NCBI RefSeq assembly: GCF_013282155.1
Contig: NZ_BLWI01000001.1
Span: forward strand, 124,001 to 188,000
From: Sulfitobacter sp. HGT1
GTDB taxonomy: Bacteria > Pseudomonadota > Alphaproteobacteria > Rhodobacterales > Rhodobacteraceae
Reading direction: 5' to 3'
Length of the DNA: 64,000 nt
Made by a program: the position numbers and the translations under genes
Shown here: one piece after another, positions 8,548-31,414 of the stretch
Numbering within the stretch: the first letter of the stretch is position 1
Layout of the letters: each line of letters begins with the position of its first letter
The notes under the pieces: model-generated
What the model saw: only the letters and a program-made list of their open reading frames with translations
Database searches by the model: none
What the model was told of the DNA's origin: nothing

Positions 8548-10356
8548 ATGAGTAAACTTGATTTGATGAGTAACGTTGAAGCCTATGCCATCCAGAATGT
8601 TATCGCGCCTGACTTTGATCGCCCGCCAACGCTGTATCTGAACGAACCGGACACCGCGCCGGGGTGTCGGGGCGACCTGCCGTGGACCCTGAAGGCAAAT
8701 GAACTGCTTTCAACCGACACATACCTTAACGCGCTGTTCACCCATGTCTGGGGCCAGCACACAAGCATCGGCAATATCGGCCTTAGGGTTCAGTCGGATG
8801 CGGCAGTTTCGATTGAAATCTTTGCGGTCCACGCTGAACAAGGGCCGGTGCAAATTGCACGGTGGTCGGGTTCAGGGCAGCATATCATCTGGCTGAACGA
8901 CCTGCCCGAAGACACGGTGCGGCTGACTTTCACGCTCAAGGCCGATACCAAGACGCGCATTTCGATGCTTGGCTGGGTCACGGACACCGCCCCGCTCCGC
9001 ACCGCGACGCTTTCGATCGGGTTGTGTACATTCAACCGAGAACCGTTTTTGGCGCGGACGGTTGAAGCGCTGGTTCAGCAGCGCGCAAAAACGCCCGCCA
9101 TTGATCGCATTTGGGTCATCAATCAGGGGGCCTCGTTTACCGATCCGGACCTGCTAGAGAATGCCAATCTGGACTTTGTGAACGTTCTTGAGCAACCCAA
9201 CCTGGGCGGTTGCGGTGGTTTTGCGCGCAGTATGCTGGAAAGCATAACCGCAGAAGATCCGACGACGCATCATGTATTGATGGATGACGATATCGTCCTT
9301 GATCCCAGAATGCTCGACCGGATCGCGCTGTTTTTGGGGTATTGTCACGAGGCTCTGGCGCTTGGCGGGCAGATGCTGGAGATTGAGACCCCGACCCGGT
9401 TGCACGAGGCTGGCGGGCGGTTGCATCCGCTTTGGTTTGTGGAATCCCTTGGCCATCACCTTCGGATGGATACCCCCCAAGGGCTGGCGTTTTTCAACGA
9501 AACTCCGTTGATCGACTATAATGCATGGTGGTTTTGTACCATTCCCACCGATGTGATCCGCGCCATCGGCCTGCCACCGCGGCTTTTTATTCGTGGTGAC
9601 GACATCGAATATGGCAGCCGCATGGCCGCGGCAGGTGTCAAAACGATCCCGTTGCCGGGGTGCGTGGTCTGGCACGAAAGCTTTGCCTACAAGCAAAGCG
9701 ATTGGTTGCTGTATTACGACCTGCGCAACCGTCTTTTGCTGGGAGTTTTGCACCCGCACACTGCGGCCCCGCCCGACACGCTTTATCTGCTGGGGTACTG
9801 CCTGAGCGTTTTGCTCAAGCACCAATACCGGTCGGTGGAGACCTTGCTCAAGGCTATTTCGGATGCCATCGAAGACCCGCGCGTGTCTTTTGCCGTTGAT
9901 GAAACCACCCGCCACCAAGCCTTGCTATCCTGGCTCAAGGGTATTCCTGAGCCAAAGGTCTATGCGGCGGAGGCGATGCCGGAAAGCGAGGAAGGGACAT
10001 TGGTGCCACTTGATCCATCGGTTCTGGCGATGGTCAAAATGTCTGTGAAGGGTTTTGTCACCTTGCACCTGTCGCGGCTTTTGCCACGTCGCAAGCCGCT
10101 GCGGTTTCAGACAATGCCGCAGGCCACGGCGGTCGGTGCGCGCGACTATCTGGCCTGTCGCAATCCCGATGGCACCGAATTTACCCTTTACCAAAGCAAC
10201 CTGTTTGAGCTTTGGCGTCTGTTTTTCAAAACCCTGTACGTGTGTTTGCGACACCAGTTGCGGCACAAGGAAATGACAACAACCTATGCTGCCCAGCTTG
10301 AAAGCCTGCGCAGCCAAGAGACGTGGCGCAAGGTTTTTGGCATTGATCAGCCCTGA
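8548..10356 (+). CDS. Galactofuranosyltransferase, GlfT2-like (GT2)
   Basis: Protein of 602 residues; start at ATG 8548, 4 bp after glf. The N-terminal 150 residues resemble the beta-sandwich of mycobacterial GlfT2. The GT-A domain follows: LSIGLCTFNRE opens it, LMDDDIVLDP holds the metal-binding acidic residues (D246-D248), and RGDDIEYGSRM and VVWHESF follow in the order seen in GlfT2. In that family one enzyme alternates linkages to build a galactan from UDP-Galf. The C-terminal 150 residues (RLLPRRKPLRF and after) may bind membrane or acceptor, as proposed for GlfT2. Adjacency to glf makes the donor assignment strong; the acceptor is unknown. Confidence 0.87.
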   Translation: MSKLDLMSNVEAYAIQNVIAPDFDRPPTLYLNEPDTAPGCRGDLPWTLKANELLSTDTYLNALFTHVWGQHTSIGNIGLRVQSDAAVSIEIFAVHAEQGPVQIARWSGSGQHIIWLNDLPEDTVRLTFTLKADTKTRISMLGWVTDTAPLRTATLSIGLCTFNREPFLARTVEALVQQRAKTPAIDRIWVINQGASFTDPDLLENANLDFVNVLEQPNLGGCGGFARSMLESITAEDPTTHHVLMDDDIVLDPRMLDRIALFLGYCHEALALGGQMLEIETPTRLHEAGGRLHPLWFVESLGHHLRMDTPQGLAFFNETPLIDYNAWWFCTIPTDVIRAIGLPPRLFIRGDDIEYGSRMAAAGVKTIPLPGCVVWHESFAYKQSDWLLYYDLRNRLLLGVLHPHTAAPPDTLYLLGYCLSVLLKHQYRSVETLLKAISDAIEDPRVSFAVDETTRHQALLSWLKGIPEPKVYAAEAMPESEEGTLVPLDPSVLAMVKMSVKGFVTLHLSRLLPRRKPLRFQTMPQATAVGARDYLACRNPDGTEFTLYQSNLFELWRLFFKTLYVCLRHQLRHKEMTTTYAAQLESLRSQETWRKVFGIDQP

Positions 10357-16231: not shown

Positions 16232-17467
16232 TTAGCGGGCTGATCCCACGATGCCATCCGAAACAAGCTTGGCTATTTCGGCGGGGGTAAGGTTCAGGCG
16301 TTCGGTCAGAACCTCTATCGTATTTTCGCCCAAGAGGGCGGGGGCTGCGGCCTTGTTTGGTCCTGCCCCGTCAAATCGGATCGGCCCGCGCACCAGCCGC
16401 ATTTCACCGATTTCCGGATGCACCACCGTTTCCACAAGGCCGCGCTTGGCAACGTGATCCTGTTCCAGCGCTTCACCGATGGACAGGATCGGCGCACTGG
16501 GCACGTCGAATTCTTCGAGCCGTTGAAGCCAGTATTCGGTGGTGTTTTGGGTCATGCGCGCATGGATGATCGGTTGCAATGCGGTGCGGTTGGCCAGTCG
16601 CGCTTCGTATAGGGCAAAACGGGCGTCTTTGATCAGGTCTTCGCGGTCCAGGCTGCGTGCGAAATTATGCCAGAAACGTTCGGTCAGGCAGGCCACGATG
16701 ACATGCCCGTCAGATGTCGGGAACGACCCATAGGGTACGATGCTGGGATGTTGGGTGCCAACGGGTTCGGGGCTTTTTCCGGTGACGAAATAGATCTGCG
16801 ACAAATACCCTTGCAACGCGATGAGACTGTCGAGCATCGCCACCTCGATATGCCTGCCGCGCCCGGTTGTGTTGCGTTCGTGCAGCGCTGCGAGCAATCC
16901 GAAAAGCGAAAAGATGCTTCCGGCCAGATCGCCCAAGGGAATGCCCAGCTTGTTTGGTGCCTGACCCGGTTCGCAATTCACGCTCATCACCCCGGACAGC
17001 GCTTGGGCCACAATGTCAAAGGCGGGTTTGTCGCCATGCGGGCTGTCGGTGCCAAACCCGGTGATCGAGCAATAGAGCACCCGTTCGTTCACGGCGCGCA
17101 AAGCGTCATACCCCAATCCCAGCCGGTCCATCACGCCGGGGCGGAAGTTCTCGAGAACGATGTCGCTTTGCTGCGCCAGATCCTTTGCGATCTGCATCCC
17201 TTCGGGGGATTTCAGATCAAGGGAAATGCTTTTCTTGCTCCGGTTTAGTGCCATGTAATAATGGCTCATCCCGTGTTGGAAAGGCGGGAAGTTACGGGTC
17301 TCGTCGCCGGTTGAAATCGGCTCTATCTTGATGACTTCGGCCCCCAGATCGGCCAGCACCATGCTTGCGTAAGGGCCCGACAGGATCCGTGAAAAGTCGA
17401 GGACCTTGATCCCTGCCAAAGGGCCGGCCTGCGGCCCAGTCGGGGTCTGCTCTTGGGTGTCACTCAT
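16232..17467 (-). CDS. CaiB/BaiF family III CoA-transferase
   Basis: Enzyme of 411 residues that moves CoA between carboxylic acids. The opening IKVLDFSRILSGPYASMVLADLGAEVIK (key residues RILSGP and ADLGAEV) is the family signature. The PAFDIVAQALSGVM segment carries the Asp expected to form the anhydride intermediate. It overlaps the upstream thioesterase by 8 bp and lies in the operon started by the IclR regulator, with the oxygenase/TRAP relics after its stop. Substrate unknown. Confidence 0.93.
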   Translation of the reverse strand: MSDTQEQTPTGPQAGPLAGIKVLDFSRILSGPYASMVLADLGAEVIKIEPISTGDETRNFPPFQHGMSHYYMALNRSKKSISLDLKSPEGMQIAKDLAQQSDIVLENFRPGVMDRLGLGYDALRAVNERVLYCSITGFGTDSPHGDKPAFDIVAQALSGVMSVNCEPGQAPNKLGIPLGDLAGSIFSLFGLLAALHERNTTGRGRHIEVAMLDSLIALQGYLSQIYFVTGKSPEPVGTQHPSIVPYGSFPTSDGHVIVACLTERFWHNFARSLDREDLIKDARFALYEARLANRTALQPIIHARMTQNTTEYWLQRLEEFDVPSAPILSIGEALEQDHVAKRGLVETVVHPEIGEMRLVRGPIRFDGAGPNKAAAPALLGENTIEVLTERLNLTPAEIAKLVSDGIVGSAR

Positions 17468-17891
17468 GGTTTTCTCCCGATTGTTTTGAAATCTTCATGA
17501 CGGCGGACGCGCTTGCGATCGCCTTGTCACCGCAGGTGATATCCGCATCGACAAAGATCAAAGACCGCGTTGCCTGACGGATCACGGGGCGGATTTCCAG
17601 AAAATCACCAACGCGGGCAGCACCCAGAAAACGCGTCTCCATCTGGACGGTGACCGTTGGTCGCCGGTCTGCGGCGTTCCATGCGCTAAGCGCGATCACC
17701 TGATCCAGAAGGCTGGTGATGACGCCGCCATGAACAATGCCCAGATGGTTTTTATGGGTCTCGTTGGTTTGCAGCGCATAGCTGTGTTTTTGCGCCGTTT
17801 GCGCCGACCGCAACAGCGGGCCGATCAGCGCCATAAACCCGTCAATCTTCAATGCCCGCCAGCCGTCTGGTGCAGTGCGATGTGCCGTCAC
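17460..17891 (-). CDS. PaaI-like hotdog acyl-CoA thioesterase
   Basis: Protein of 143 residues from a GTG at 17891, which sits 3 bp after the regulator stop. HGGVITSLLDQ is the PaaI/4HBT signature in which the Asp or Gln region is catalytic. Family members hydrolyse aromatic or short-chain acyl-CoA and so free CoA when a pathway stalls. Tight linkage to the CoA-transferase and IclR genes places it in the same catabolic unit. Confidence 0.85.
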   Translation of the reverse strand: MTAHRTAPDGWRALKIDGFMALIGPLLRSAQTAQKHSYALQTNETHKNHLGIVHGGVITSLLDQVIALSAWNAADRRPTVTVQMETRFLGAARVGDFLEIRPVIRQATRSLIFVDADITCGDKAIASASAVMKISKQSGENHE

Positions 17892-17894
17892 GAT

Positions 17895-18680
17895 CTAACT
17901 CCCGGTATCGATCTGAATGTTTTCGATGTGTTCCCGAATGGCCTTCATCGCCTTGACCAGTTTCGGGATTTCCTTGTCTTTCAGGCGTTCCGATATGCCA
18001 ATGGCGACGATTGAACGGGTCATCTTGCCGTTTGCGCCAAAGACCGGAACCGCAACAACGGTAACGCCGGAAATATAGCTGCCCTGATCAACCGCATAGC
18101 CAAGTTCGCGCGCCTGCCTGACCTGTTCGCGCCACAACTCGTGCGAGGGCGGGTGATCCCATGCCAGCTTGTCAAACGCGGTTTTCAGCTCGTCTTCGTC
18201 CGTCATGTTGAAGGCGGCGAACAGGCGTCCGCTGGCGCTGATCAGGGCGGGAAAACGGCTGCCCAGATCGACCTGAAGCCGAAACGGTATGTCTGATTGA
18301 GAAAGCGCAACGACCACCATTTGCCCCGGCTCGGAAAGCTGGGTGGCGATCCCGGTCACACCGAATTTCTGCGACAGCTCGGACAGTTTGGGCTGGATCA
18401 ACGTCGAGAAAGTGTTGCGCTGAAGTGCTGCTCTGGCGAGGGGCAGAATGCCGATTCCGATCGTGTAGCGTTTCAGATTCGAATCAAATTCCACCAGCCC
18501 CTCATCCTCGAGAACACGCAGAATATGCAGGCAGGTGCTTGGGATCAGATCAAGCTCCCTCGCGATGGGATTGACCCCGATCGGTTCGTTCGATCGTGCC
18601 AGAAGCCTCAATATAGCAAGGGCGCGGGTCACTGCCGGCACCTGTCGCTTGGTGGCTGATTTCTTGTCTTCGCTGGTCAT
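17895..18680 (-). CDS. IclR-family transcriptional regulator
   Basis: Regulator of 261 residues from ATG 18680 (an ATG 54 bp upstream adds a tail not seen in the family). The N-terminal winged helix (ALAILRLLARSNEPIGVNPIAREL, recognition region STCLHILRVLEDEGLV) is followed by the ligand-binding GAF-like domain (GSRFPALISASGRLFAAF, then DQGSYISGVTVVAVPVF). It is divergent from the acyl-CoA ligase and heads the thioesterase/CoA-transferase operon, so it likely controls both directions through the inverted repeats at 18705-18776. The inducer is probably the acid or its CoA ester. Confidence 0.92.
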   Translation of the reverse strand: MTSEDKKSATKRQVPAVTRALAILRLLARSNEPIGVNPIARELDLIPSTCLHILRVLEDEGLVEFDSNLKRYTIGIGILPLARAALQRNTFSTLIQPKLSELSQKFGVTGIATQLSEPGQMVVVALSQSDIPFRLQVDLGSRFPALISASGRLFAAFNMTDEDELKTAFDKLAWDHPPSHELWREQVRQARELGYAVDQGSYISGVTVVAVPVFGANGKMTRSIVAIGISERLKDKEIPKLVKAMKAIREHIENIQIDTGS

Positions 18681-18704
18681 TTCAGTCCCCTGTCTGACTC
18701 GGAT

Positions 18705-18776
18705 ATTGTTGTACATATACAATAAAGGAATCATATTGACAACAATTGATTGTGATCCCTACCATTGTCAACAATG
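18705..18776. promoter_or_regulatory. Divergent promoter with three ATTGT/ACAAT inverted repeats
   Basis: Between the IclR gene and the acyl-CoA ligase are three dyads on the same theme: TTGTACATATACAA (18709-18722), ACAATTGATTGT (18742-18753) and CATTGTCAACAATG (18763-18776). A TTGACA (18736-18741) with TACCAT 18 bp later could be the ligase promoter, overlapped by the second dyad. Position and repeat form fit an IclR operator cluster. Binding is inferred. Confidence 0.6.
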
Positions 18777-18827
18777 CAGGCCACACCTTCAGAGCGGCCC
18801 GCCAGAAACTTTGGGGAGGAGACGGGA

Positions 18828-20387
18828 ATGACCCGGTTGACGGAATTCACGTCCTACGCGGACGCTCAAAAGCACTACTCGAAAGAGAAGCTTTGGGAGC
18901 TGTTCGACGGCGACACGACGCGGTTCAATATCGGGCATGAATGCCTTGACCGGCATGTAGACGGACAAAACATAGCGCTTCGGATCGCGCATTCTGACGG
19001 TGCCGACGAAGTGCTGACCTTTGAGGAAGTCTCGCGGCGCTCCTCGCAGATCGCCCATTATCTGGATGCGAAAGGTGTCAAGAAAGGCGACCGGGTCGCG
19101 GTGATGATCGAACCCTCGCTGGCCTTTTACAGCGCCATGTTCGGGGTAATCAAAAGCGGTGCCGTTGCGGTGCCCATGTTTTCGCTTTTCGGGCCGGACG
19201 GAATTCAGCTGCGGGTGGGCGACTGCAAACCTGTGGTGTTCTTTACCAATGCTGAAAAGGCCCCTGACGCGATATCGGGGGGTGCCAGCAATGTGACGGT
19301 GGTCGATCACGATTTCCTCGAGGGGCTAAATGACCTGCCCGCCACCTATGACTGGGATACGTCGGGCCGCGATCTGGCGGTTTTGCAATATACCTCGGGG
19401 ACGACCCGCGCCCTGCCTGCTGCTGTCAAACACAGCCACCAGTCGATCGTGACGCTGATGGTTGCCGCGCTTTATGCCACAGGTATTCGCCCGAACGATC
19501 GGTTCTTTTGCCCGTCATCACCCGCCTGGGGGCACGGCCTTTGGCATGGCACGCTTGCGCCGCTGGCGATGGGGGTGTCGACAGGGACATTCAGCGGCAA
19601 ATTCGATGCAGTCCGCCTGCTGCGCGCCTTGCATGATTTCCGCATCACCAACCTGACGGCAGCAGCGACGCATTACCGGATGATGCGGAATTCCGGCAAG
19701 GCCGAGAGTTTTTCCTATTGCTTTGAAAAGCTGTCTTTCACCGGCGAGCCGATTGACTCTGAAACCGCGAATTACGTCGAACAGGTTTTCGGGACCAAGG
19801 TGCGTTCGATGTACGGCACGACCGAAATCGGCGTGATCATCGCAAACTATCCGGGTGCCGATGATCTTGAGGTCCGCGAAGGCGCGATGGGCAAAGCAGT
19901 TCCGGGTGTCGAGGTCGAAGTGCAACGCCCCGATGGAACACCGGCTGATCCGGGCGAGACCGGCGAACTGATGGTCAAGAAGCGCGGCGAATGGTTTCCG
20001 ACCAAAGACCTGGGCCGTGTGGATGAGGATGGCTATTTTTACCACGGTGGCCGGGCCGACGATGTGATCATTTCCGCCGGCTGGACAATTGGTGCGGTCG
20101 AGGTCGAGGACGCCGTCCTGAGCCATCCGGCAGTTGCCGAATGTGCCGTCATCGGTGCCCCCGATGAGCTTCGCGGTTTGGTGGTCAAAGCTTTCATCAT
20201 CCTCAAAGGCCCCGAAACACCCGGCTTGGCCAAAAGCATCCAAGATCACGTGCGCGCCAGATTGGCCCGCCATGAATACCCCCGCCAGATCGCGTTCGTC
20301 ACGGAGCTTCCGAAGACGCCGGCGGGAAAAGTGAACCGAAAAATTCTGAGAGATCAGGAAGCCGAAAAACTGGCTGCTGCGGAATGA
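18828..20387 (+). CDS. AMP-forming acyl-CoA ligase
   Basis: Adenylate-forming ligase of 519 residues from ATG 18828, chosen because GGGGAGGAG sits 7 bp before it. Core motifs are YTSGTTR, MYGTTEIG, TKDLGRVDEDGYFYHGGRADD, and the C-terminal lysine in TPAGKVNRKILR. The phosphate loop departs from the usual YTSGTTGxPK, reading YTSGTTRALPAAVKH. The order of motifs resembles medium-chain or aromatic acid ligases. It would activate the acid imported by the TRAP system three genes downstream. Confidence 0.92.
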   Translation: MTRLTEFTSYADAQKHYSKEKLWELFDGDTTRFNIGHECLDRHVDGQNIALRIAHSDGADEVLTFEEVSRRSSQIAHYLDAKGVKKGDRVAVMIEPSLAFYSAMFGVIKSGAVAVPMFSLFGPDGIQLRVGDCKPVVFFTNAEKAPDAISGGASNVTVVDHDFLEGLNDLPATYDWDTSGRDLAVLQYTSGTTRALPAAVKHSHQSIVTLMVAALYATGIRPNDRFFCPSSPAWGHGLWHGTLAPLAMGVSTGTFSGKFDAVRLLRALHDFRITNLTAAATHYRMMRNSGKAESFSYCFEKLSFTGEPIDSETANYVEQVFGTKVRSMYGTTEIGVIIANYPGADDLEVREGAMGKAVPGVEVEVQRPDGTPADPGETGELMVKKRGEWFPTKDLGRVDEDGYFYHGGRADDVIISAGWTIGAVEVEDAVLSHPAVAECAVIGAPDELRGLVVKAFIILKGPETPGLAKSIQDHVRARLARHEYPRQIAFVTELPKTPAGKVNRKILRDQEAEKLAAAE

Positions 20388-20424
20388 TCCGCGACGCCGG
20401 CCCAATATTTTCAAGGAGAACGAA

Positions 20425-21561
20425 ATGAACGAGATGACACGTAAATTCCCGAAGATCACGGATGAAGGTCTGGAAGACCTGCGCAAGCGCGTCGGCGTAA
20501 AAATCGAAAGAACGGTCGAGCCATGGTGCTATGAGGCGACCCGCGACAACATCCGCCACTATGCCCACGGCATCGGCGACGACAATCCGCTGTGGTGCGA
20601 CCCTGAGTACGGCAAAACCACAAAATACGGTGATGTTCTGGCACTGCCGAGCTTCCTGTTTGCCACCAGCCGGATCATCTCGGGGTATGTGGGCGGTCTG
20701 CCGGGCGTTCACGCCATGTGGTCGGGCGCAAACTGGACATGGCACAAGCCGATCCTGCGCAACACGGAGTTCCGCACCGAGGCTTATCTGAAAGACCTGA
20801 TCGAGCATAACACCCGCTTTGCAGGTAAGGCGATCCAGCAGATTTATCACGTTGATTTCTATGACGCGAAGACCGGCGAGATGCTGGCCGAGGCCGATAG
20901 CTGGTGTTTCCGCACCGACCGCGATCAGGCCCGCGAAAACGGCACCAAATACACCGAGGCCAAAAAGAACGGTCGCAAGGTCTATACGCAGGAAGAACTG
21001 GATAAATACTATAAGTATTACGAGCAGGAAACGATCCGCGGTGCCGAAACCCGTTATTGGGATGACGTCAACGAAGGCGACGAACTGCCCACAATGGTCA
21101 AGGGCCCGATGACGGCGACCGGTTTTATTGCTTACGCGCAGGGCTGGGGTGGTTTGTACATCCGTGCCAACAAGCTGGCCTGGCAATTGCAGCAAAAACA
21201 CCCAAGCGCGGGGATCAAGAACAAGTTCGGCATTCCCGACTGCCCCGAGCGCGTGCATTGGGAAGAAGAATTTGCCCTCGAAGTCGGTGCGCCGGGTGCC
21301 TATGACTATGGCCCCGAGCGGACGTCGTGGCTGACGCACCAGATCACCAACTGGATGGGCGATGACGGTTTCCTTGCCAAGTCGAAATGCGAAGTCCGCC
21401 GTCACAACCCCGAAGGCGACATCATCCTGATCCACGGCACCGTTGTTCGCAAGTTCGAGGAAGACGGCCGCTTCTTGCTGGAAATCAAGCAACGTGCGGA
21501 ACAGCAAGACGGCGAAATGTCGGCTGTTGGGTCTGCCATCGTGGAATTGCCCAAACGCTGA
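20425..21561 (+). CDS. MaoC-type acyl dehydratase (double hotdog)
   Basis: Protein of 378 residues with two hotdog halves, the first opening YEATRDNIRHYAHGIGDDN and holding the hydratase-like D and H. The second half runs from about residue 200 (RYWDDVNEGDELP). Family members hydrate or dehydrate enoyl-CoA or beta-hydroxyacyl-CoA esters. It lies 37 bp after the ligase and has AAGGAGAACG before its start. It probably acts on the CoA ester made by the ligase; the actual substrate is unknown. Confidence 0.83.
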   Translation: MNEMTRKFPKITDEGLEDLRKRVGVKIERTVEPWCYEATRDNIRHYAHGIGDDNPLWCDPEYGKTTKYGDVLALPSFLFATSRIISGYVGGLPGVHAMWSGANWTWHKPILRNTEFRTEAYLKDLIEHNTRFAGKAIQQIYHVDFYDAKTGEMLAEADSWCFRTDRDQARENGTKYTEAKKNGRKVYTQEELDKYYKYYEQETIRGAETRYWDDVNEGDELPTMVKGPMTATGFIAYAQGWGGLYIRANKLAWQLQQKHPSAGIKNKFGIPDCPERVHWEEEFALEVGAPGAYDYGPERTSWLTHQITNWMGDDGFLAKSKCEVRRHNPEGDIILIHGTVVRKFEEDGRFLLEIKQRAEQQDGEMSAVGSAIVELPKR

Positions 21562-21595
21562 GGTCCACCACGCTTCAACAGCTGGGGAGGCTTCG

Positions 21596-22123
21596 TTGAA
21601 ATTTCTGGGAAAACTTCTGACCAAGATAGAGGACACCCTTCATATCGGAGGGTGCCTCGGCCTCGTCGCCGTGGCGGCGTTGATCAATGCAGATATTCTG
21701 CTCCGGCTTTTCTTTAACAGGCCGGTGCAGATCCAGTTCGAATTGACCGAACTGTACTTGATGCCGGCACTTGCCACGTTGTCCTTGTCGCGGGTTTTCC
21801 GTGACGGCGGGCATCTGGCGCTGGATTTTGTGCCCGAACATCTACCCGGAGTTTTTGGAAGGGTTGTCGCCAAATTGCGATTGCTTTTGCCTGTGCTGTT
21901 CTTTGGCGCGGTCACATGGATGTCGGGGAAATTTGCTTTCAAAGCCATCTCGAATGGGGATGTCGAATACGGAGCAATCGATTGGCCGCTTGGGTGGGCC
22001 TACGCCGTGATCCCTTTGGGATGCAGCGTTCTGGTTCTGCGGCTGCTCCACGATGCTTTCACGCGAAAGCCGTGGTCAGTACCCACAACAAACCCAATGG
22101 GAGGAAAACCAAATGAAACATAA
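21596..22123 (+). CDS. TRAP transporter small permease DctQ
   Basis: Four-helix membrane protein of 175 residues. The start is taken as TTG 21596 because GGGGAGG lies 5 bp upstream and the sequence from there (KFLGKLLTKIEDTLHIGGC) fits DctQ N-termini. Helices lie at about 17-35, 55-75, 95-115 and 130-155. It overlaps the binding-protein gene by 11 bp. Confidence 0.85.
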   Translation: MKFLGKLLTKIEDTLHIGGCLGLVAVAALINADILLRLFFNRPVQIQFELTELYLMPALATLSLSRVFRDGGHLALDFVPEHLPGVFGRVVAKLRLLLPVLFFGAVTWMSGKFAFKAISNGDVEYGAIDWPLGWAYAVIPLGCSVLVLRLLHDAFTRKPWSVPTTNPMGGKPNET

Positions 22124-23114
22124 GAATAAACTGATTTCAGCCGTGGCAAGCGCGTTTGTATTTGCCGGAATGGCTGCCCACGCGGAAGCGCTGCGCCTTG
22201 GTGATTTTCAATCCACCAGCCACATCGTTTCTGTCGAAGGCACGACCAAGTGGATGGCCGCTGTGACCGAAGCCACAGATGGCGCGATCACCTTCGAGCA
22301 TTTTCCATCACAGCAGGCGGCAAAATCCAAAGCCCAGCTGGATGCTGTCAACAACGGCATTCTGGACGTCGCATTGCTTGGCGCGTCCTATCACGCGGAC
22401 GTCTTGCCACTGAACTCTGTCGTGGGGCTGCCCGGCTATTATGGCTCGGCTGAACAGGGCACAGTTGCGCTGCAAACGATGCTGCAAGACGGCCCGCTGC
22501 GCGACGAAATTCTGGCGTCGGGTGTTACACCGGTCTTTGGTTTCGTTTTGCCGCCCTATCAGGTGCTCGCCAAAAAGCGGCTTGGGATGCCAGCGGATTG
22601 GGACGGGCTTGACGTGCGCACCTCGGGGTCGACGCAAGCGATGACCGCGCGTGCGCTTGGCGGTGTTGGCATCTCAATTCCGGGGCCAGAGGTATATACC
22701 GCCGTGGAGCGTGGCCGTCTGGATGCGGTGTTGTTCCCGCTGGCATCGGTACCCGGCTACAAGCTGAACGAAGTCGTTAGCCACATTTCAACCAACGGGT
22801 CGTTCGGCGGCTACAGCTTTATCATGGTGGTCCGTACCGATCTTTTCGACGGCCTGCCTGAGGACGTTCAGGCCAAGATGCTTGCGCTTGGAAATGAAAC
22901 CGCCGTTCACGTTGCACAAGCACAAGACGCGTCCGTCGAAGGGCTGATCGAAAGCTGGAAAGCGGAAGGCATCGACACCTATACGTTCACCGAAGAAGAG
23001 CTTGCGACGATCACGGATGCTTTGGTGGCTGTCAGCGTCGATTGGGCAGAGCGCCTGCAAGATGACAAGGCTGCCGCCGTTCTTGAAAGCTACAGCGCGC
23101 TGACCCGCGAATAA
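22113..23114 (+). CDS. TRAP transporter substrate-binding protein DctP
   Basis: Periplasmic protein of 333 residues with a signal peptide (KHKNKLISAVASAFVFAGM, cut near AHAEA). GLDVRTSGSTQAMTARALG holds the Arg that pairs with the ligand carboxylate in this family. Start at 22113 follows GGAGG within the end of DctQ. The ligand is probably an organic acid processed by the adjacent ligase and dehydratase. Confidence 0.93.
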   Translation: MKHKNKLISAVASAFVFAGMAAHAEALRLGDFQSTSHIVSVEGTTKWMAAVTEATDGAITFEHFPSQQAAKSKAQLDAVNNGILDVALLGASYHADVLPLNSVVGLPGYYGSAEQGTVALQTMLQDGPLRDEILASGVTPVFGFVLPPYQVLAKKRLGMPADWDGLDVRTSGSTQAMTARALGGVGISIPGPEVYTAVERGRLDAVLFPLASVPGYKLNEVVSHISTNGSFGGYSFIMVVRTDLFDGLPEDVQAKMLALGNETAVHVAQAQDASVEGLIESWKAEGIDTYTFTEEELATITDALVAVSVDWAERLQDDKAAAVLESYSALTRE

Positions 23115-23189
23115 CATCGCGTTCCGAAACACTTATCCGGGCGGTCGCTGCGGCGGCCGCCTGCCACAGACGGAGCGGAAATTCATCAG

Positions 23190-24479
23190 ATGCTTACATT
23201 CGGTATCATACTTATTATTCTTGCCGTTCTCATGGCGGCACGCGTGCCAATCGCTTTTGCGATGGGTATCACCGGCACGCTTGGTCTTGCGGCGCAGCTT
23301 GGGTTCAAACCTGCATTGGCGGTGTTGGAACGTACCTTCTTTGACTCGTCTTCCTCCTTTATATTGGTTGCCATCCCGCTGTTTATCCTGATGGCCGAAT
23401 TGCTGACCGCAGGGGATGTGACCCGCCGGGCCATCATTGCCTGCCAGTCCTGGATCGGCCACGTCAAAGGCGGACTGGCCATCGCTACTGTCGCGGCTTC
23501 GGTTCTTCTGGCGGCGCTGGTTGGCAGTTCCACGGCGTCGACGGCTGCGATGGCGGCTTCTGCATTCCCCGAGATGCGTCGACATAACTACTCTGATCGT
23601 CTTGCGGCGGCGGTTGTCAGCGTCGGCGGCACATTGGCCGTGGTCGTCCCGCCCTCTATCGTGCTGGTGGTCTATGGCGTTTTGACAGAAACCTCGATCG
23701 GCAAGCTGTTCATCGCGGGGATCATCCCCGGCCTTTTGACCGCTGTCGGTCTGGGCGTGGTGATCAAGATCATTGCCGAGACCACGGACCAAGCTCCCAA
23801 AGGCGAACCCTTTGTGCTTAACAAAGCCATCAAGCAAAGCCGGCACGTGATCCCGATGGTGTTGCTGATGATCGCCGTTATCGGTGCAATCTACGGCGGT
23901 ATCGCATCGCCCTCCGAGGCGGCGGCCCTTGGGGTCATGGGGTCGCTGGTCATCGTTCTGGCGCAGCGCACCTTAAACTTTGTGCAGTTCAACAGATCGG
24001 TCAGCAGCGCCATCCGCGCCACGGTGATGATCGTCACGATCGTCGCCTGTTCGGCGATTTTCTCGAACTACCTGGCCTTTACCCGCATCACGCACAGCTT
24101 GCTGGAATTCGTGGCAACAACAGACATGCCGCGCGAAGTCATCATCGGCGTCATCATTGTCGCCCTGCTGGTCATGGGCATGTTCATGGACCAGCTTGCC
24201 ATTTTGTCACTGGCCATGCCGCTGGCCTTTCCGACGGCGATGGCGCTCGAATGTAACCCGGTGTGGTTCGGCATCGTGGTGACCAAAACGGTGGAGATCG
24301 GCCTTTTGACGCCGCCGCTGGGGTTGAACGCCTATGTGGCCGCCGCACAAACCAAGGTTCCGCTCGGCACGATCTTCAGGGGGATACTGCCCTTTCTCGG
24401 GATGGAGATCATCATCCTCGTTTTGTTGCTCGCCTTCCCCCAGATCACCCTGTTCCTGCCCGACCTCATGAGCCGCTGA
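23190..24479 (+). CDS. TRAP transporter large permease DctM
   Basis: Permease of 429 residues with the DctM pattern: LVAIPLFILMAELL, LVGSSTASTAAMAASAFPEMRR, VSVGGTLAVVVPPS, and the closing LLTPPLGLNAYVAA. It should have 12-14 helices and couple uptake to Na+. It completes the ligase-dehydratase-DctQPM operon. It is intact, in contrast with the relic at 15522-15800. Confidence 0.95.
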   Translation: MLTFGIILIILAVLMAARVPIAFAMGITGTLGLAAQLGFKPALAVLERTFFDSSSSFILVAIPLFILMAELLTAGDVTRRAIIACQSWIGHVKGGLAIATVAASVLLAALVGSSTASTAAMAASAFPEMRRHNYSDRLAAAVVSVGGTLAVVVPPSIVLVVYGVLTETSIGKLFIAGIIPGLLTAVGLGVVIKIIAETTDQAPKGEPFVLNKAIKQSRHVIPMVLLMIAVIGAIYGGIASPSEAAALGVMGSLVIVLAQRTLNFVQFNRSVSSAIRATVMIVTIVACSAIFSNYLAFTRITHSLLEFVATTDMPREVIIGVIIVALLVMGMFMDQLAILSLAMPLAFPTAMALECNPVWFGIVVTKTVEIGLLTPPLGLNAYVAAAQTKVPLGTIFRGILPFLGMEIIILVLLLAFPQITLFLPDLMSR

Positions 24480-25771: not shown

Positions 25772-27157
25772 GTGAAAGACCAACTTAGGCAACTGCCCCA
25801 GATCGAGGTGATGCTGACCTTTCCCAGCATTCAGGCATGCGTTGAAACCTATAGCCGGCCAGAGGTCATCGGCGCTCTTCGCGCTGCGCTGGACGCCTTG
25901 CGCAACGCGATCGGCAAAGGCGCTGAGGTGGACCTGCCTGATTTCGCGGGGGGCGGCTTTGCTGACGGTATCCGGCTGGCGATAGACCGAGCGCGTCATA
26001 TGAATTTGCGACCCGTGGTGAACGCGACGGGTATCATCATCCACACCAATCTTGGCCGTGCGCGTCTTGCCCCTCAGGCAGTGCAGGCCATGCAGGATGT
26101 CGGCGCGAACGCGTCCAACCTTGAACTGAATTTGGCCACGGGCAAACGCGGCTCTCGGTATGATCATGCCGAGGCGCTGATTTGCGAACTGACGGGGGCA
26201 GAGGCCGCGTTGATTGTGAACAACTGCGCCGCCGCCGTTGTGTTGGGGTTAATGGGGACGGCGATGGGCCGCACGGTTGTCGCGTCACGGGGCGAGCTGA
26301 TCGAAATCGGCGGATCGTTCCGCCTGCCGGATGTGATTGCCCAAAGCGGTGCCATCCTGCGCGAGGTCGGCGCGACCAACAAAACTCGGCTAAGCGATTA
26401 TGCCGATGCGATTGATGACGACACTGCCGTTTTGTTGAAAAGCCACACCAGCAATTTCAAGATCGTGGGATTTACCTCCGCACCCGACAGGCGCGATCTG
26501 GCGAAGCTGGCCAAAGACCGGAACCTGATCCTGATGGAGGACTTGGGCAGTGGTGTCCTGATTGATCTGTCGCCTTATGGGATGACCGATGAACCTGTTG
26601 TCAGTGATATCCTCAAGGCGGGCGTTGATGTGGTGATGTTTTCCGGCGACAAGTTGCTGGGTGGCCCCCAAGCCGGGATTATCGCGGGCAAAGCCGATGT
26701 GATCGCCAAGCTGCGGTCCCATCCGTTGCTGCGGGCCTTGCGGATCGACAAGCTGTCGCTTGCAGCACTCGAGGCGACGTTGCGTTTGTACCGTGCCCCG
26801 CATGATCCGTTCAAAACGATCCCTGTGCTTCAGATGCTGTCCGAACCCCTGGACGATGTGCAAACGCGGGCCAATAGGCTTGTCGCGCTGCTAAACGGGG
26901 TGGCTGCCGCGTCTGTTGTTCCGTCGGCGGCTTTTGTCGGGGGCGGATCGTTGCCGCAGCAGGAACTGCCCAGTTTTTGTGTGAGGGTCGACCACCCCGA
27001 TATGGCGGCTGATGCGCTTGCTGTTGCGTTGCGGTCTGCATCTGTGCCGGTGATCGGTCGCCTGCACCAAGGGCAGTTACTGCTCGACATGCGCACCGTG
27101 GCCGACACAGAACTGCCGCCGATCGTGGATGCAATCGGCCAAGCCTGCGCCACATGA
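25772..27157 (+). CDS. selA: L-seryl-tRNA(Sec) selenium transferase
   Basis: PLP enzyme that turns Ser-tRNA(Sec) into Sec-tRNA(Sec) with selenophosphate. The 461 residues from a GTG start match SelA. VVNATGIIIHTNLGRA, NLELNLATGKRGSR and the PLP lysine K294 in FSGDKLLGGPQAG are diagnostic. It overlaps selB by ATGA, and selC lies just beyond, so the decoding genes form one unit. selD is not in the window. Confidence 0.97.
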   Translation: MKDQLRQLPQIEVMLTFPSIQACVETYSRPEVIGALRAALDALRNAIGKGAEVDLPDFAGGGFADGIRLAIDRARHMNLRPVVNATGIIIHTNLGRARLAPQAVQAMQDVGANASNLELNLATGKRGSRYDHAEALICELTGAEAALIVNNCAAAVVLGLMGTAMGRTVVASRGELIEIGGSFRLPDVIAQSGAILREVGATNKTRLSDYADAIDDDTAVLLKSHTSNFKIVGFTSAPDRRDLAKLAKDRNLILMEDLGSGVLIDLSPYGMTDEPVVSDILKAGVDVVMFSGDKLLGGPQAGIIAGKADVIAKLRSHPLLRALRIDKLSLAALEATLRLYRAPHDPFKTIPVLQMLSEPLDDVQTRANRLVALLNGVAAASVVPSAAFVGGGSLPQQELPSFCVRVDHPDMAADALAVALRSASVPVIGRLHQGQLLLDMRTVADTELPPIVDAIGQACAT

Positions 27158-29040
27158 CATCGGCTTGCGTCATTGTGATCGGGCATGTGGATCATGGCAA
27201 AACCACAGTTGTACGGGGCTTGACCGGCATGGAAACGGATACCTTGCCGCAGGAAAAGCAACGCGGGTTGTCGATCAACCTTGGCTTTGCCTATTGCCGT
27301 TATCCGTCCGGCACCGTTGATCTGATCGACGCGCCCGGCCACGAGGATTTCATCCGCGCGATGGTCGCCGGTGCCAGCGGTGCGCAGGCGGCGCTGTTGG
27401 TCGTTTCCGCCGTCGATGGCGTCGCCCCCCAAACGATAGAGCATCTGCGCATTGCGAGACTTCTGGGCGTCCCTGTGCGTTTTGTCGCGGTGACCAAGGT
27501 CGATTTACTGCCCGCCGGTGATCTGGAAACGCGGCTTGAGGCGATCCGTGAAACTCTGCGCGGGTTGGGCCTTGGGGATGTGCCGTTGATACCCGTTTCT
27601 ACCTACTTAGAGACTGGTATGCAGACTCTGCACAAGGGGTTGGAGGGCCTGCTGGGCGACGTCCCTGTCGCGCAACATCCGAAAGCCGGCTTTCTGCCCA
27701 TCGACCGGGTTTTCACCATGCCGGGTCTGGGGACGGTCGTGACCGGAACACTGCTGGGCGGCAACCTGTCGCTGTCTGACGCGGTGAAACTGCTGCCGCA
27801 AGATCGGCCTGTGACCCTCCGAGGCGTGCAGGTGCGCGGCACCGCGCTGGACCATGCCACCCGCGGTGAACGGACGGCGGTCAATCTGCGGGGCATTGCA
27901 GCCGATGATATCACGCGGGGGGATGTGCTCTGTGCTGGCGCTGACTTTGCGGCGGCGCGCTGCATGGATGTCCGGTTGAGCTTGCTTGATGATGCGCCGT
28001 CCCCCCTGAAACATATGTCGGACGTCAGGGTTCTGTTCGGCACAACCCATACTGTCGCGACCCTGCGCCTGATGGGCGGCGGGCAGGTCGTGCAAGGTAA
28101 TTCAGCCTTTGCGCAGCTGCGTTTTGACAAGCCGGTTGCGGCATTTGCAGGCCAGCGCATGATCTTGCGCGCCTTGTCACCGGCCCAGACGATTGGCGGG
28201 GCCGTGGTGCTTGATCCGCATTCGCTTGGGGTCAAATCTGGCGATGCTGCGCGTCTGGCGGTGATGCAGGCGGCGGCAGGTGGAAGGACAGGCGACATCG
28301 TTGCTGCGCTTTGTGTTCAGGGCAGGGGCTGTGCTGATCTGTCTGAGGCAGCGCGGATTGCACGGCAGAACCCGGCAAGCGTTTTGGCAGCGCTCGGGGC
28401 CGAAGTCACGCAGATCGCCCCCGGATGGATCGCCTTGTCCGACATCATCCAGACAGCACAGGCTGACCTGTTGCAAAGCCTGAAAACGTTTCATGCAGAA
28501 CACCCGATCAAGCGGTTTGCACCGCGCGGCATGTGGGCGAACCGCAAGCAATCGCCGCGGCTCTCGCACTATGTGGAGCAGAGTTTGGCCAACGAAGGCG
28601 CGATCCGCTTGGCCGGTGATCAGATCGCCTTGACCAGCCATGACCCCTCCGCGGCACTAACCAAAACCCAACGCGACCGGCTGGAGGAAATCGAAAAGCA
28701 GTTCAAAGACGGGGGCACCGTGCCGCCCGGTCTTGGCACCGTCTTGGAAACCGGCGACGATCCTGACCTGCTTGCGATTTTGATGGCGGACGAGACCTTG
28801 GTCGCGCTGACCAATGTCGCGCTTAATCAGCAGGTGGTTTTTCACAGCCGGACCCTTGTGCAATCGGCCCAGACCCTGCGCGATGCGTTCCCGCCGCCGA
28901 TGTCTTTCACAACGGGACAGGCGCGCGCGGCGCTGCACACCAGTCGCAAGTTCATCGTGCCGCTGTTGGAGCATTTCGACACCATCGGGGTCACGCAGCG
29001 GCAAGGTGACACTCGCCAGATGGCACCGCTTGCTGATTGA
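27154..29040 (+). CDS. selB: Selenocysteine-specific elongation factor
   Basis: GTPase of 628 residues that carries Sec-tRNA to UGA codons marked by a SECIS hairpin. G1 loop GHVDHGKTT (residues 10-18), DAPGHEDFI and TKVDLL mark the EF-Tu-like part. The C-terminal region (about 380-628) has the winged-helix repeats that bind SECIS RNA. It is directly followed by the tRNA-Sec gene and, two genes later, by a UGA-containing reading frame it would decode. Confidence 0.97.
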   Translation: MTSACVIVIGHVDHGKTTVVRGLTGMETDTLPQEKQRGLSINLGFAYCRYPSGTVDLIDAPGHEDFIRAMVAGASGAQAALLVVSAVDGVAPQTIEHLRIARLLGVPVRFVAVTKVDLLPAGDLETRLEAIRETLRGLGLGDVPLIPVSTYLETGMQTLHKGLEGLLGDVPVAQHPKAGFLPIDRVFTMPGLGTVVTGTLLGGNLSLSDAVKLLPQDRPVTLRGVQVRGTALDHATRGERTAVNLRGIAADDITRGDVLCAGADFAAARCMDVRLSLLDDAPSPLKHMSDVRVLFGTTHTVATLRLMGGGQVVQGNSAFAQLRFDKPVAAFAGQRMILRALSPAQTIGGAVVLDPHSLGVKSGDAARLAVMQAAAGGRTGDIVAALCVQGRGCADLSEAARIARQNPASVLAALGAEVTQIAPGWIALSDIIQTAQADLLQSLKTFHAEHPIKRFAPRGMWANRKQSPRLSHYVEQSLANEGAIRLAGDQIALTSHDPSAALTKTQRDRLEEIEKQFKDGGTVPPGLGTVLETGDDPDLLAILMADETLVALTNVALNQQVVFHSRTLVQSAQTLRDAFPPPMSFTTGQARAALHTSRKFIVPLLEHFDTIGVTQRQGDTRQMAPLAD

Positions 29041-29079: not shown

Positions 29080-29174
29080 GGAGGTGACTGGAGTCTGGTG
29101 GCTTCCCTGGTCTTCAAAACCATGGACGCGCCGAAAAGGCGTGTGGTGGGTTCGATTCCCATCCACCTCCGCCA
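29080..29174 (+). tRNA. selC: tRNA-Sec (anticodon UCA)
   Basis: 95-base tRNA with encoded CCA. Acceptor arms GGAGGTG (29080-29086) and CACCTCC (29164-29170); anticodon TCA at 29114-29116 in loop CTTCAAA; long variable arm with stem near 29126-29141; T-loop TTCGATT. The length, extra arm and UCA anticodon are those of selenocysteine tRNA. It lies 39 bp after selB. Confidence 0.95.
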
Positions 29175-29237
29175 AGCGGCTGGACATTGCGCTGCAATCG
29201 CCATCAATATGCAAATGCATACTTGGGAGGGTGGCCG

Positions 29238-30827
29238 ATGATAGATGCAGCGCGTTCTTTCACACTGAATAATCTGGACGGGGCGGCGCATGCCTTTGAT
29301 GGCACAGGCCCTGCGTTGGTTTGTTTCGTGAAAGAGGATTGCGAGACCTGCAACATCGCGGGCCCTGTGATCGAGGGAATGTTCAAGGCCTATGGCAGCG
29401 GCATCGACATGGTTGTGCTGGGCCAGTCCGGTGACAATAACGGGGTGTTTGCCCGGCGTCATGGCCTGACCATGCCCGTGCTGGCGGATGCTGGATGCAA
29501 GGCGTCGTTTGATTGGGACATCGAAATCGTGCCCGCCGTGTTCTGGATTGATGAGGCTGGCAAGGTCGTCACCAAGTTCGAAGGCTTCGTGCGCGACGAC
29601 TGGCAAGCGTTGTCCGATCAGATCGCGGCCGAAACAGGTCAACCCAATGCGCAGATCGACTGGGACAGTCTGCCGCCGTGGCGGCCCGGTTGCGGGTCCA
29701 AACACTTTGACCCCGAGATTTACGACAAGCTGCGTGCCGAAGCGGACGGCAGCGTCTTGCGCGCCCGCAAGGTCGAGGTTGCCAGCGGCGATGACGTGGC
29801 AGAGTTCATGTTCGATCAGGGCTTTTCGGACGGGTTGCCGCTGGTGCCACCGACGCCCGAACGGGTGATGCGGATGCTGGCCGGGACCCACCGCGACCCG
29901 CAAGAGGTGATCGCGACCGTGCCGCCCAACATGGGTGTCGCCACGGTTGAAAAGATCGCGATCAACGCGGTGATGGCGGGCTGCAAGCCTGAATATCTGC
30001 CCGTAGTCATCGCGGCAGTCGAAGCCGTTTGTACCGATGAATTCAACATTCACGGGGTGACGGCAACCACGATGGGGGCCGCGACGGTGATGGTCGTCAA
30101 CGGCCCCGTGGTCGAGAAAATCGGGATGAATGCGGGCCTTGGCGCGATGGGGGCCGGCAACCGTGCCAACGCCACCATCGGGCGCGCGCTGCGTCTGGTG
30201 ATCCGCAATGTGGGCGGTGCGACGACAGGGGGCGTTGAACGGTCGACGCTTGGCAATCCAATGAAATACACCATGTGCTTTGCCGAAAACGAAGCCGTGT
30301 CGCCGTGGGAGCCGCTGCATGTCGAGCGCGGTTTCAAGGCGGAAGATTCCGTCGTCACCGTCTTTGCCATGACAGGTGGCCCGGTGCATATCGTCGACCA
30401 GACCTCGCGCAAGCCGGACCAGATTGCCGGATCATTGGGGCAGGGGCTGGAAGGGGTGTTCATGCCCAAACTGCACAACCTGCCCGTCGACGCACTGCTG
30501 GTGGTGTGCCCTGAACATATCAACACGCTGACCGTTGAGGGTGATTATTCCAAGGACCGTCTGCGCGACCGCATTCAGGAAGTCACATCGCGCCCCCTGC
30601 GTGAAATGGTCCAGAATGATCATTCCGGCGCGGGGATCCCTGTTGCGGATGCCGAAAAGATGGGGCCGGAAAAACTGGCGCAGCTGGCCCCGAAATTCGC
30701 CGGCAAGGAATATATTCATATCGTTGTCGCAGGCGGCGAGGCCGGCAAGTTCTCGTCGGCCTTCCATGGCTGGGCCACGGGCGCGGTCGGGTCAATTTCC
30801 GTTTCCAGAAAGATCGATCTGGGCTAG
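29238..30827 (+). CDS. Thioredoxin-domain protein with a large conserved C-terminal domain, UGSC neighbour
   Basis: Protein of 529 residues from ATG 29238, which follows GGGAGGG. Residues 1-130 look like a thioredoxin or peroxiredoxin fold with a CETC redox pair (C35, C38) after LVCFVKED, and VPAVFWID as the cis-Pro region. The remaining 400 residues are rich in glycine and conserved-looking blocks (FSDGLPLVPPTPERV, MGVATVEKIAINAVMAGC, GVTATTMGAATVMVVNGP) whose activity I cannot name. It lies between selC and the UGSC selenoprotein, 24 bp ahead of the latter. A redox partnership with the selenoprotein is a natural guess, not shown. Confidence 0.85.
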   Translation: MIDAARSFTLNNLDGAAHAFDGTGPALVCFVKEDCETCNIAGPVIEGMFKAYGSGIDMVVLGQSGDNNGVFARRHGLTMPVLADAGCKASFDWDIEIVPAVFWIDEAGKVVTKFEGFVRDDWQALSDQIAAETGQPNAQIDWDSLPPWRPGCGSKHFDPEIYDKLRAEADGSVLRARKVEVASGDDVAEFMFDQGFSDGLPLVPPTPERVMRMLAGTHRDPQEVIATVPPNMGVATVEKIAINAVMAGCKPEYLPVVIAAVEAVCTDEFNIHGVTATTMGAATVMVVNGPVVEKIGMNAGLGAMGAGNRANATIGRALRLVIRNVGGATTGGVERSTLGNPMKYTMCFAENEAVSPWEPLHVERGFKAEDSVVTVFAMTGGPVHIVDQTSRKPDQIAGSLGQGLEGVFMPKLHNLPVDALLVVCPEHINTLTVEGDYSKDRLRDRIQEVTSRPLREMVQNDHSGAGIPVADAEKMGPEKLAQLAPKFAGKEYIHIVVAGGEAGKFSSAFHGWATGAVGSISVSRKIDLG

Positions 30828-30851
30828 CATTATATTTAGAGGAGGACATGA

Positions 30852-31373
30852 ATGACCATAATTCTCGACCCGACGGATGAACGCGTCCCGGTCGTGCGTC
30901 AGATTACCGAACGAACCGGATCGGTGCAGGGGGTCGTGGGGCTGCTGAACATCAGCAAACCGCGCGGCAATATCCTGCTGGACGAACTGGACCGTTTGAT
31001 AGCCGAAGGCGCGCCGGGCGTTGAAATCCGCCGCTATACCAAACCGACCTTCGCCAAGCCGTGCCCCGACGCATTGCGCCATCAAATTCGCGACGAATGC
31101 GATTTTATGATCGAGGCATTGGCGGACTGAGGATCATGTACCACGTGCAGTATGCACGATACAGTCTGGTTTGAAATCCAGGGGATCCCGTCCGTTTCCG
31201 TCGCCTCGAGCGCGTTTGGCCAAGCTGCGGAAACGCAGCGCAAAGCGTTAGGTATGGAGGGCGCAAGATACGTGTTGGTGCCGCATCCCATTCAGGATGC
31301 CACCGACGACGAAATGCGCATCAAAGCCCGCGAAGCCTATGACCAGATCATGGCAGCGCTAAGCGATAAATAA
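30852..31373 (+). CDS. UGSC-family selenoprotein, Sec at residue 93 (UGA 31128-31130)
   Basis: Read straight through the in-frame TGA at 31128-31130 this is a 173-residue protein; without it the frame breaks into 92 and 80 residues that share one frame. The codons after GAC are TGA GGA TCA TGT, giving U-G-S-C, then TTC and SMHDTVWFEI. That is the UGSC motif for which the family is named (first noted in marine metagenome selenoprotein surveys). AGGAGGAC precedes the start. selA, selB and tRNA-Sec lie immediately upstream, and a SECIS-like hairpin follows the UGA. The Sec-Gly-Ser-Cys motif suggests redox chemistry; the reaction is unknown. A conventional gene-finder would stop at 31130 and split or truncate it. 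Confidence 0.93.
31128..31163 (+). promoter_or_regulatory. Bacterial SECIS-like hairpin after the Sec codon
   Basis: A 6-bp stem (31144-31149 with 31153-31158) carries a tight loop GTA at 31150-31152; a lower 4-bp helix (31137-31140 with 31160-31163) is separated by a CCA/A internal loop. Counting the U of UGA as 1, the loop G and U are at 23 and 24, where the E. coli fdhF element has its SelB-contacting G and U. It lies within the coding sequence, as bacterial SECIS elements do. Confidence 0.75.
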
Positions 31374-31374
31374 C

Positions 31375-31414
31375 GAAAAAAGCGGCGCAGGGGAAACCTT
31401 GGGCCGCTTTATAA
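31375..31414. terminator. Bidirectional terminator between the selenoprotein and nagA
   Basis: AAAGCGGC (31379-31386) pairs with GCCGCTTT (31403-31410), with further pairing inside. An A-run upstream and TTT downstream give a U-tract in both directions. It separates two convergent genes and overlaps the nagA stop. Confidence 0.8.

Follow-up and report, generated by a model that had tools for sequence, protein, structure and literature searches.

The window analysed here, 64,000 nucleotides from the 3.8-Mb genome of Sulfitobacter sp. HGT1, carries a UGSC locus that stands near those of Sulfitobacter and Roseobacter. On its forward strand we find selA, the selenocysteine synthase gene (25772-27157; TIGR00474 at 570.7 bits against a cut-off of 267.9, and PF03841), and selB, the gene of the Sec-specific elongation factor (27154-29040; TIGR00475 at 283.4 bits, cut-off 242.25, with the SelB winged helix PF09107). 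They are followed by a tRNA-Sec with anticodon tca (29080-29174), found by ARAGORN and matched by RF01852 at 74.3 bits (gathering threshold 47). Next on the same strand comes an ORF of 546 codons (29187-30827), referred to below as the partner gene, which is defined by the ORF list, its domain matches and its conserved position before UGSC. A Shine-Dalgarno-like GGAGG, read from the sequence at 30841-30845, precedes the gene of a UGSC family selenoprotein of 173 amino acids (30852-31373), assigned through PF24696, NF041046 and homologues. Its Sec codon 93 is an in-frame TGA at 31128-31130, and the apical hairpin of a SECIS-like element, recognized by folding and by codon conservation across homologues, lies at 31144-31158. 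A sequence-only reading of this DNA had placed selA, selB and tRNA-Sec directly upstream of UGSC; they are indeed upstream, but not directly so, as the partner ORF sits in between. On the 3′ side of the UGSC stop codon, an inverted repeat GCGGC...GCCGC with A and T runs on either side (31375-31412) may mark the end of the transcript; it is absent from the output of a terminator scan run with a short-loop rule.

The bacterial selenoprotein gene set of selA, selB, tRNA-Sec and selD is entirely present in the host genome. The selD gene is found on another contig (L082, G000:C19:156338-157225), inside an open frame of 740 codons with no internal stops. This frame is long enough for an NADH dehydrogenase-SelD fusion, a type of protein reported in the accessible part of the 2008 survey of selenoproteins in aquatic metagenomes. 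A search of the host genome for a Sec-type formate dehydrogenase gave nine matches, none of them with an internal stop.

Two short reading frames of the same phase had been described as halves of one gene, with Gly-Ser-Cys following the TGA and a read-through product of 173 residues carrying Sec93. All of this holds, the first frame (30852-31130) comprising 92 codons before the TGA and the second going on to 31373. The assignment to the UGSC family holds as well: PF24696 matches residues 4-171 of the product at 160.1 bits (cut-off 25) and NF041046 matches residues 28-170 at 178 bits (cut-off 125), both spanning the join. The complete active-site motif of the window protein reads U93-G-S-C96-T-T-C99.

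We scanned 84,980 species genomes and retained the best 80 of 149 relatives which, with the own-genome copy, constitute the 81 loci compared below; these sequences are related, and the locus counts do not represent independent events. Homologues ending at the UGA had been set beforehand as one of the refuting tests. There are none among the best 80 of 149: all run past the TGA, with 64-98% identity across the match, and all 81 loci have their TGA at this very codon. After the TGA, differences between the 80 loci and the window amount to 0.19, 0.14 and 0.50 for the three codon positions and thus fall mostly on the third; among 6240 codons, 2221 differ synonymously and 1508 non-synonymously. The corresponding numbers before the TGA are 2759 and 2158 among 7355, so that in these 80 loci, the best of 149, the constraint is about the same on both sides. 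The joined frames are not due to chance, given the two model matches across the join, the universal TGA and the third-position divergence. On DNA alone it is formally possible that the UGA is a true stop, the DNA then encoding either a 92-residue protein followed by decayed sequence or a pair of small independent proteins, and the second frame does have an ATG of its own at 31152. We regard such a stop as highly improbable: every one of the best 80 of 149 homologues extends beyond it, the constraint is equal before and after, and the Cys versions of UGSC are uninterrupted, with no stop.

Bacterial SECIS elements are hairpins with a G in the apical loop, located shortly after the UGA. The window hairpin has six pairs and a GUN loop at 31150-31152, 13 nt past the UGA, and the minimum-energy fold contains such a six-pair hairpin with a GUN loop in 41 of 42 distinct sequences. 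Ser100 is encoded by AGT in all 42, against 127 of 2371 serine codons (5%) in the partner genes of the same loci. Similarly, Cys99 is always encoded by TGC (42 of 42), a codon used for 512 of 681 cysteines in the partner genes. The variable pair of the stem joins the third positions of Thr98 and His102; with ACG/CAC in 32 sequences, ACG/CAT in 6 and ACA/CAT in 4, pairing is always kept, as G-C, G-U and A-U, respectively. The three distant TGA copies (L084, L089 and L093) all have AGT at the loop serine. It is found in none of ten Cys copies, three of which encode serine there through other codons. Folded as a single sequence, the window hairpin is of unremarkable stability (z -0.70, 46 of 200 shuffles being as good). 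Judging from codon usage across homologues, the SECIS-like hairpin is fixed through synonymous sites. Read-through had been called well supported, and we concur, in view of the TGA in 81 of 81 loci, the continued protein-level constraint, the hairpin and the nearby Sec machinery. By every sequence test made, the UGSC ORF is a genuine selenoprotein gene.

The UGSC family had been described by 2008 and, in the accessible part of the survey of that year, is one of the major families of selenoproteins in aquatic metagenomes. The earlier remark that the family is known from such surveys but its reaction is not agrees with the literature, which in the text available assigns UGSC no reaction. The window gene is a plain member of this known and already modelled family (PF24696; NF041046, 'UGSC family (seleno)protein'): it shares both model matches and the [U/C]GSC motif, has Sec as in the close clade, and shows no difference from the models. 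The partner is matched by neither of them. The sequence-only reading expected automatic annotation to miscall such a gene. NCBIfam now provides a model for the family, but among nine plasmid copies in the PLSDB gene table the UGSC name is missing for four, one of which lies in a nearly unannotated record.

Of 398 Pseudomonadota genomes, 5 contain a PF24696 match; within the host's own family, Rhodobacteraceae, the figure is 6 of 295, with 5 of these matches above the cut-off. A clear tRNA-Sec, defined as at least 65 bits (a line set after the scores were seen), occurs in 8 of the same 295 genomes; further down, the list resumes under 55 bits, with what look like other tRNAs cross-matching the model. 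The intact TGA copies belong to three genomes (the host, G505 and G599), all of them among the eight, and the genomes of the copy without a stop (G411) and of a broken copy (G277) have no clear tRNA-Sec. PF24696 finds nothing in the other five of the eight, so Sec must have uses besides UGSC in the family. The G277 copy (L087, G277:C6:12789-13246) consists of two broken frames; Cys stands in place of Sec, and a TGA occurs further downstream. A TGA-containing UGSC gene is also found on p2-T1, a conjugative IncP plasmid of Acidovorax sp. T1 (L093:8640-9164), downstream of two insertion-element transposases; the gene listed there (8640-8930) ends at the TGA.

In a tree of 32 UGSC proteins, whose deep branches are long and unsure, exchanges between Sec and Cys number at least two on well-supported branches and four on the best tree. 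The alignment subsets were A1, with 39 UGSC rows (the window and 38 of the 81 loci), A2 (36 rows), A3 (28 rows) and A5 (12 rows).

The partner gene is tightly linked to UGSC. A relative of it precedes UGSC in 78 of the 81 loci (own and best 80 of 149), at a distance of -4 to 199 bases, and in the remaining three the contig ends within five bases of UGSC; hence the pairing holds in 78 of 78 loci with upstream DNA. By profile searches, the two are adjacent, in either order, in 16 of 16 distant loci of the Cys or Sec type from proteobacteria, actinobacteria and haloarchaea, which were chosen by a match to partner or UGSC. Of the 25 plasmid records that matched the partner, 13 lie outside the loci compared, and a partner without UGSC may occur among them. 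Two of the sixteen, from Variovorax boronicumulans and Vibrio europaeus, encode a UGSC-partner fusion. In the accessible part of the 2008 survey, UGSC is found fused to an 'Unknown_1' domain, which may be the partner domain. Two partner copies surround one UGSC gene in two haloarchaea (L096:8932-11567 and L098:8870-11530) and two follow it in one proteobacterium (L129:3131-5639), a doubling that hints at a three-part complex.

The partner ORF opens at a TTG, and many homologues begin at the ATG at 29238 (residue 18), which is probably the true start. From about residue 20 to 151 it contains a thioredoxin domain with the motif CETC. These N-terminal 130 residues resemble TlpA/ResA-type thioredoxins (ResA and DsbE-like chains, Z about 17), the difference being that here the domain is fused to a large unnamed one, at about residues 200-546. 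No Pfam family covers this remainder in any of 36 members, and a sequence search for its solved relatives gave one row, at E 0.14. Cys266 and Cys364 are invariant over 36 partner sequences, and Arg333 likewise counts among the invariant residues; locus L023 was dropped from the alignment for a stop within the chosen range. The AlphaFold model of the partner is fair (pLDDT 80, pTM 0.59).

We then considered relatives of UGSC outside its own family, taking PrdB and GrdB genes from named Firmicutes records. With a UGSC profile of 52 rows, the broken L087 removed, against four GrdB sequences, hhalign gave 93.3%, E 2.8e-7 (an E-value for a single profile pair) and a score of 55.6. The best of 100 column shuffles scored 21.7 and the reversed alignment 21.4; a score of 45.7 remained once the Sec column had been masked. 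Eight unrelated families of the same loci scored 11.6-28.9, some of their alignments holding only 1 to 4 sequences. The match was lower for the 39 close UGSC rows alone (65%, score 39.4) and weak for UGSC against PrdB alone (50.5%, score 35.0); Cys-type relatives taken from proteobacteria gave a still weaker match (17.9% and a score of 30.2, set against 28.9 for one unrelated family). PrdB and GrdB matched each other at 99.7%. The window protein and the four GrdB sequences align without gaps from U to U+20, in a common register of U, G+1, S/T+2, C+3, C+6, E+15 and G+18.

UGSC aligns in this way with the C-terminal part of GrdB (PF07355, TIGR01917), which has the same U-G-S/T-C-T-x-C, E+15, G+18, I+19 and P+20; in both proteins a P-H/Y-P motif comes after the active-site stretch. 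Whereas GrdB has about 440 residues, UGSC has 173 and no counterpart of the GrdB N-terminal part, and the pyruvoyl partner of the GrdB system is absent from the UGSC pair. PrdB (TIGR04483), of about 240 residues, carries U-G-T-C at the same place of a related domain and likewise has a second subunit, but it does not have the C+6 seen in UGSC. That second subunit, PrdA, is reportedly a proprotein with a pyruvoyl group, and the UGSC partner is not PrdA-like. On profile evidence, the distant relationship of UGSC to GrdB is well supported, and by way of GrdB it would extend, distantly, to PrdB.

Among the 39 UGSC members, none exceeds the cut-off of PF07355 or TIGR04483, and one matches TIGR01917, at E 0.14 and below its cut-off. 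A role for the partner as a pyruvoyl subunit was tried and rejected: its C-terminal domain compares with PrdA at 0.34% and with GrdE at 0.05%, scores that lie within the shuffles, PrdA and GrdE themselves matching at 98.7%. The PrdA and GrdE sets were used separately (best of 40 shuffles, 25.1 and 24.1), since one shuffle of the mixed set was outlying at 132. The pyruvoyl proprotein family PF09338 is matched by none of 36 partner members. Searched with PF07355 and PF09338, the host genome gave no match, the control genomes being equally silent. With family models below cut-off and a partner that is not of the PrdA/GrdE type, UGSC is not a member of GrdB or PrdB, but it may work like these enzymes. 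Publications naming both, as far as their accessible text goes and supplements aside, draw no link between UGSC and glycine reductase; this is no proof of novelty.

The AlphaFold model of UGSC (pLDDT 93, pTM 0.90) alternates strands and helices from residue 28, with Sec93 placed after strand 85-91 and just ahead of helix 94-109. As modelled, it is a Rossmann-like alternating α/β protein. Foldseek ranks flavodoxin-like and lumazine-synthase-like structures at the top, and many Rossmann-like folds match about equally well. The second-ranked structure is 8s7v_H, from the methyl-coenzyme M reductase activation complex (Z 10.7, 129 residues, 3.1 Å), in a tie with unrelated rows. Solved relatives by sequence amounted to four chance-level rows for UGSC (E 0.79-1.1), none with a profile, and to one row for GrdB (E 0.79).

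The thioredoxin fold has a C-terminal strand hairpin. It is absent from the UGSC model, whose alternation of strands and helices leans against the thioredoxin-like fold considered likely for UGSC in the 2008 survey. That assignment, together with a single sentence of a 2026 review naming UGSC among proteins of thioredoxin-like fold (both as far as the accessible text goes), would suit a general thiol/selenol oxidoreductase: a disulfide, peroxide or sulfoxide reductase built on a thioredoxin-like fold, with the partner as electron supplier or protein substrate. The UxxC motif and the thioredoxin domain of the partner are compatible with it as well. We consider this rather unlikely, since the model alternates strand and helix and has no such hairpin, its best structural matches are flavodoxin-like and lumazine-synthase-like, and sequence similarity points to GrdB; such an enzyme would also leave the large conserved C-terminal domain of the partner and the strict linkage unexplained.

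As for the source of electrons, trxB and trxA directly precede the UGSC-partner pair in Arthrobacter, trxB directly follows it in Roseovarius THAF8 and lies within 3 kb of it in Variovorax SRS16, with TrxB over the cut-off in all three. A TrxB-like protein below the cut-off is encoded near the pair in Variovorax boronicumulans and near one G139 copy, and the G143 partner aligns with the thioredoxin domain. Together, with G143 included, 6 of the 16 distant loci have a link to thioredoxin or its reductase. Neither is annotated near six other distant copies (four from haloarchaea, Acidovorax T1 and Vibrio europaeus); four loci, the other G139 copy, G277, L100 and L102, are outside this census. 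According to the accessible text of PMC13188914, glycine reductase uses thioredoxin as its reductant and GrdB has a UxxCxxC motif. On this genomic evidence a thioredoxin electron route is likely for UGSC.

The gene order of the locus invites another explanation. Among the 81 loci (own and best 80 of 149), selB, tRNA-Sec, partner and UGSC follow one another in 55, and in 36 selA stands ahead of them on the same strand. If the pair served selenium or redox homeostasis, say by delivering or sensing selenium, its position in the selA-selB-tRNA-Sec cluster would be accounted for, and AIR-synthase-like domains, as in SelD, occur in 4 of the 102 ORFs that flank the pair in other loci. Against this, neither selA nor selB was matched in the flanking DNA of 17 of the 81 loci, 7 of these with 8 kb upstream, and the Cys forms, those of haloarchaea included, have catabolic genes as neighbours and no annotated sel gene within 10 kb. 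We hold a homeostatic role to be improbable.

The neighbours of the pair are varied, and no substrate follows from them. In 14 chosen loci, 102 ORFs selected by length with no gene finder fell into 97 Pfam families (E 1e-4), none found in more than 6 ORFs; the Sec-type loci have mixed neighbours. A CoA-transferase is encoded within 10 kb in 5 of 10 annotated plasmid loci (10-kb flanks), and several of these loci also encode acyl-CoA dehydrogenases, enoyl-CoA hydratases and TTT/TRAP transporters. Going by such neighbours, our guess for the substrate would be a carboxylate or an acyl-CoA compound. In the window, a cluster upstream of the sel genes (16232-24479) encodes a CoA-transferase, an acyl-CoA synthetase, a TRAP transporter, an IclR-like regulator named by sequence reading, and a protein with no NCBIfam match (20425-21561). 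The sel genes stand between this cluster and the UGSC-partner pair.

We now propose, as the explanation we find moderately probable, that UGSC is a Sec-decoded, minimal GrdB-like catalytic subunit which forms with its partner a two-subunit, thioredoxin-driven reductase. The Sec codon, the SECIS constraint, the two-gene pairing and the GrdB relation are computed observations; from them we infer the physical complex, the subunit roles, the electron route and the reductive chemistry. UGA93 would be decoded as Sec by the products of the selA, selB and tRNA-Sec genes encoded upstream, with the SECIS-like hairpin as a guide. UGSC and the product of the preceding gene would then make up one enzyme, UGSC contributing a UxxCxxC active site as in GrdB and the C-terminal domain of the partner binding the substrate in place of the pyruvoyl subunits PrdA or GrdE. 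The selenolate of Sec93 would attack the partner-bound substrate, Cys96 would resolve the selenium adduct to a selenenyl-sulfide, and the product would depart reduced. The U93-C96 pair could be re-reduced by the thioredoxin domain of the partner or, in some other genomes, by a neighbouring TrxA/TrxB.

More tentatively, and with less confidence than in the enzyme itself, UGSC and its partner could represent a third branch of selenoprotein-B reductases that occurs in bacteria from aerobic lineages and, in the Cys form, in haloarchaea. It would be compact, pyruvoyl-free and thioredoxin-driven, would act on a small organic acid or its CoA ester by reductive cleavage of a carbon-heteroatom bond, and in its Sec form would often travel with its own Sec machinery. 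If borne out, this would bring the chemistry of amino-acid-fermenting anaerobes to marine and freshwater bacteria of aerobic lineages. The family itself was already known; added here are its relation to GrdB, the linked partner with a thioredoxin of its own and the predicted fold. Neither the partner gene nor the GrdB relation had been named in the sequence-only reading. A fixed partner, a likely thioredoxin route and a place beside GrdB turn a protein of unknown function into one that can be assayed.

Finally, the fused UGSC-partner protein of Vibrio europaeus (L101:9419-11104, plasmid pVEu) has lost both the Sec/Cys position and the resolving Cys (ADMGTS), and its gene lies near one for aconitase X. 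As neither residue is there, not every UGSC copy can use Sec/Cys chemistry; this protein is possibly a non-redox or dead offshoot.
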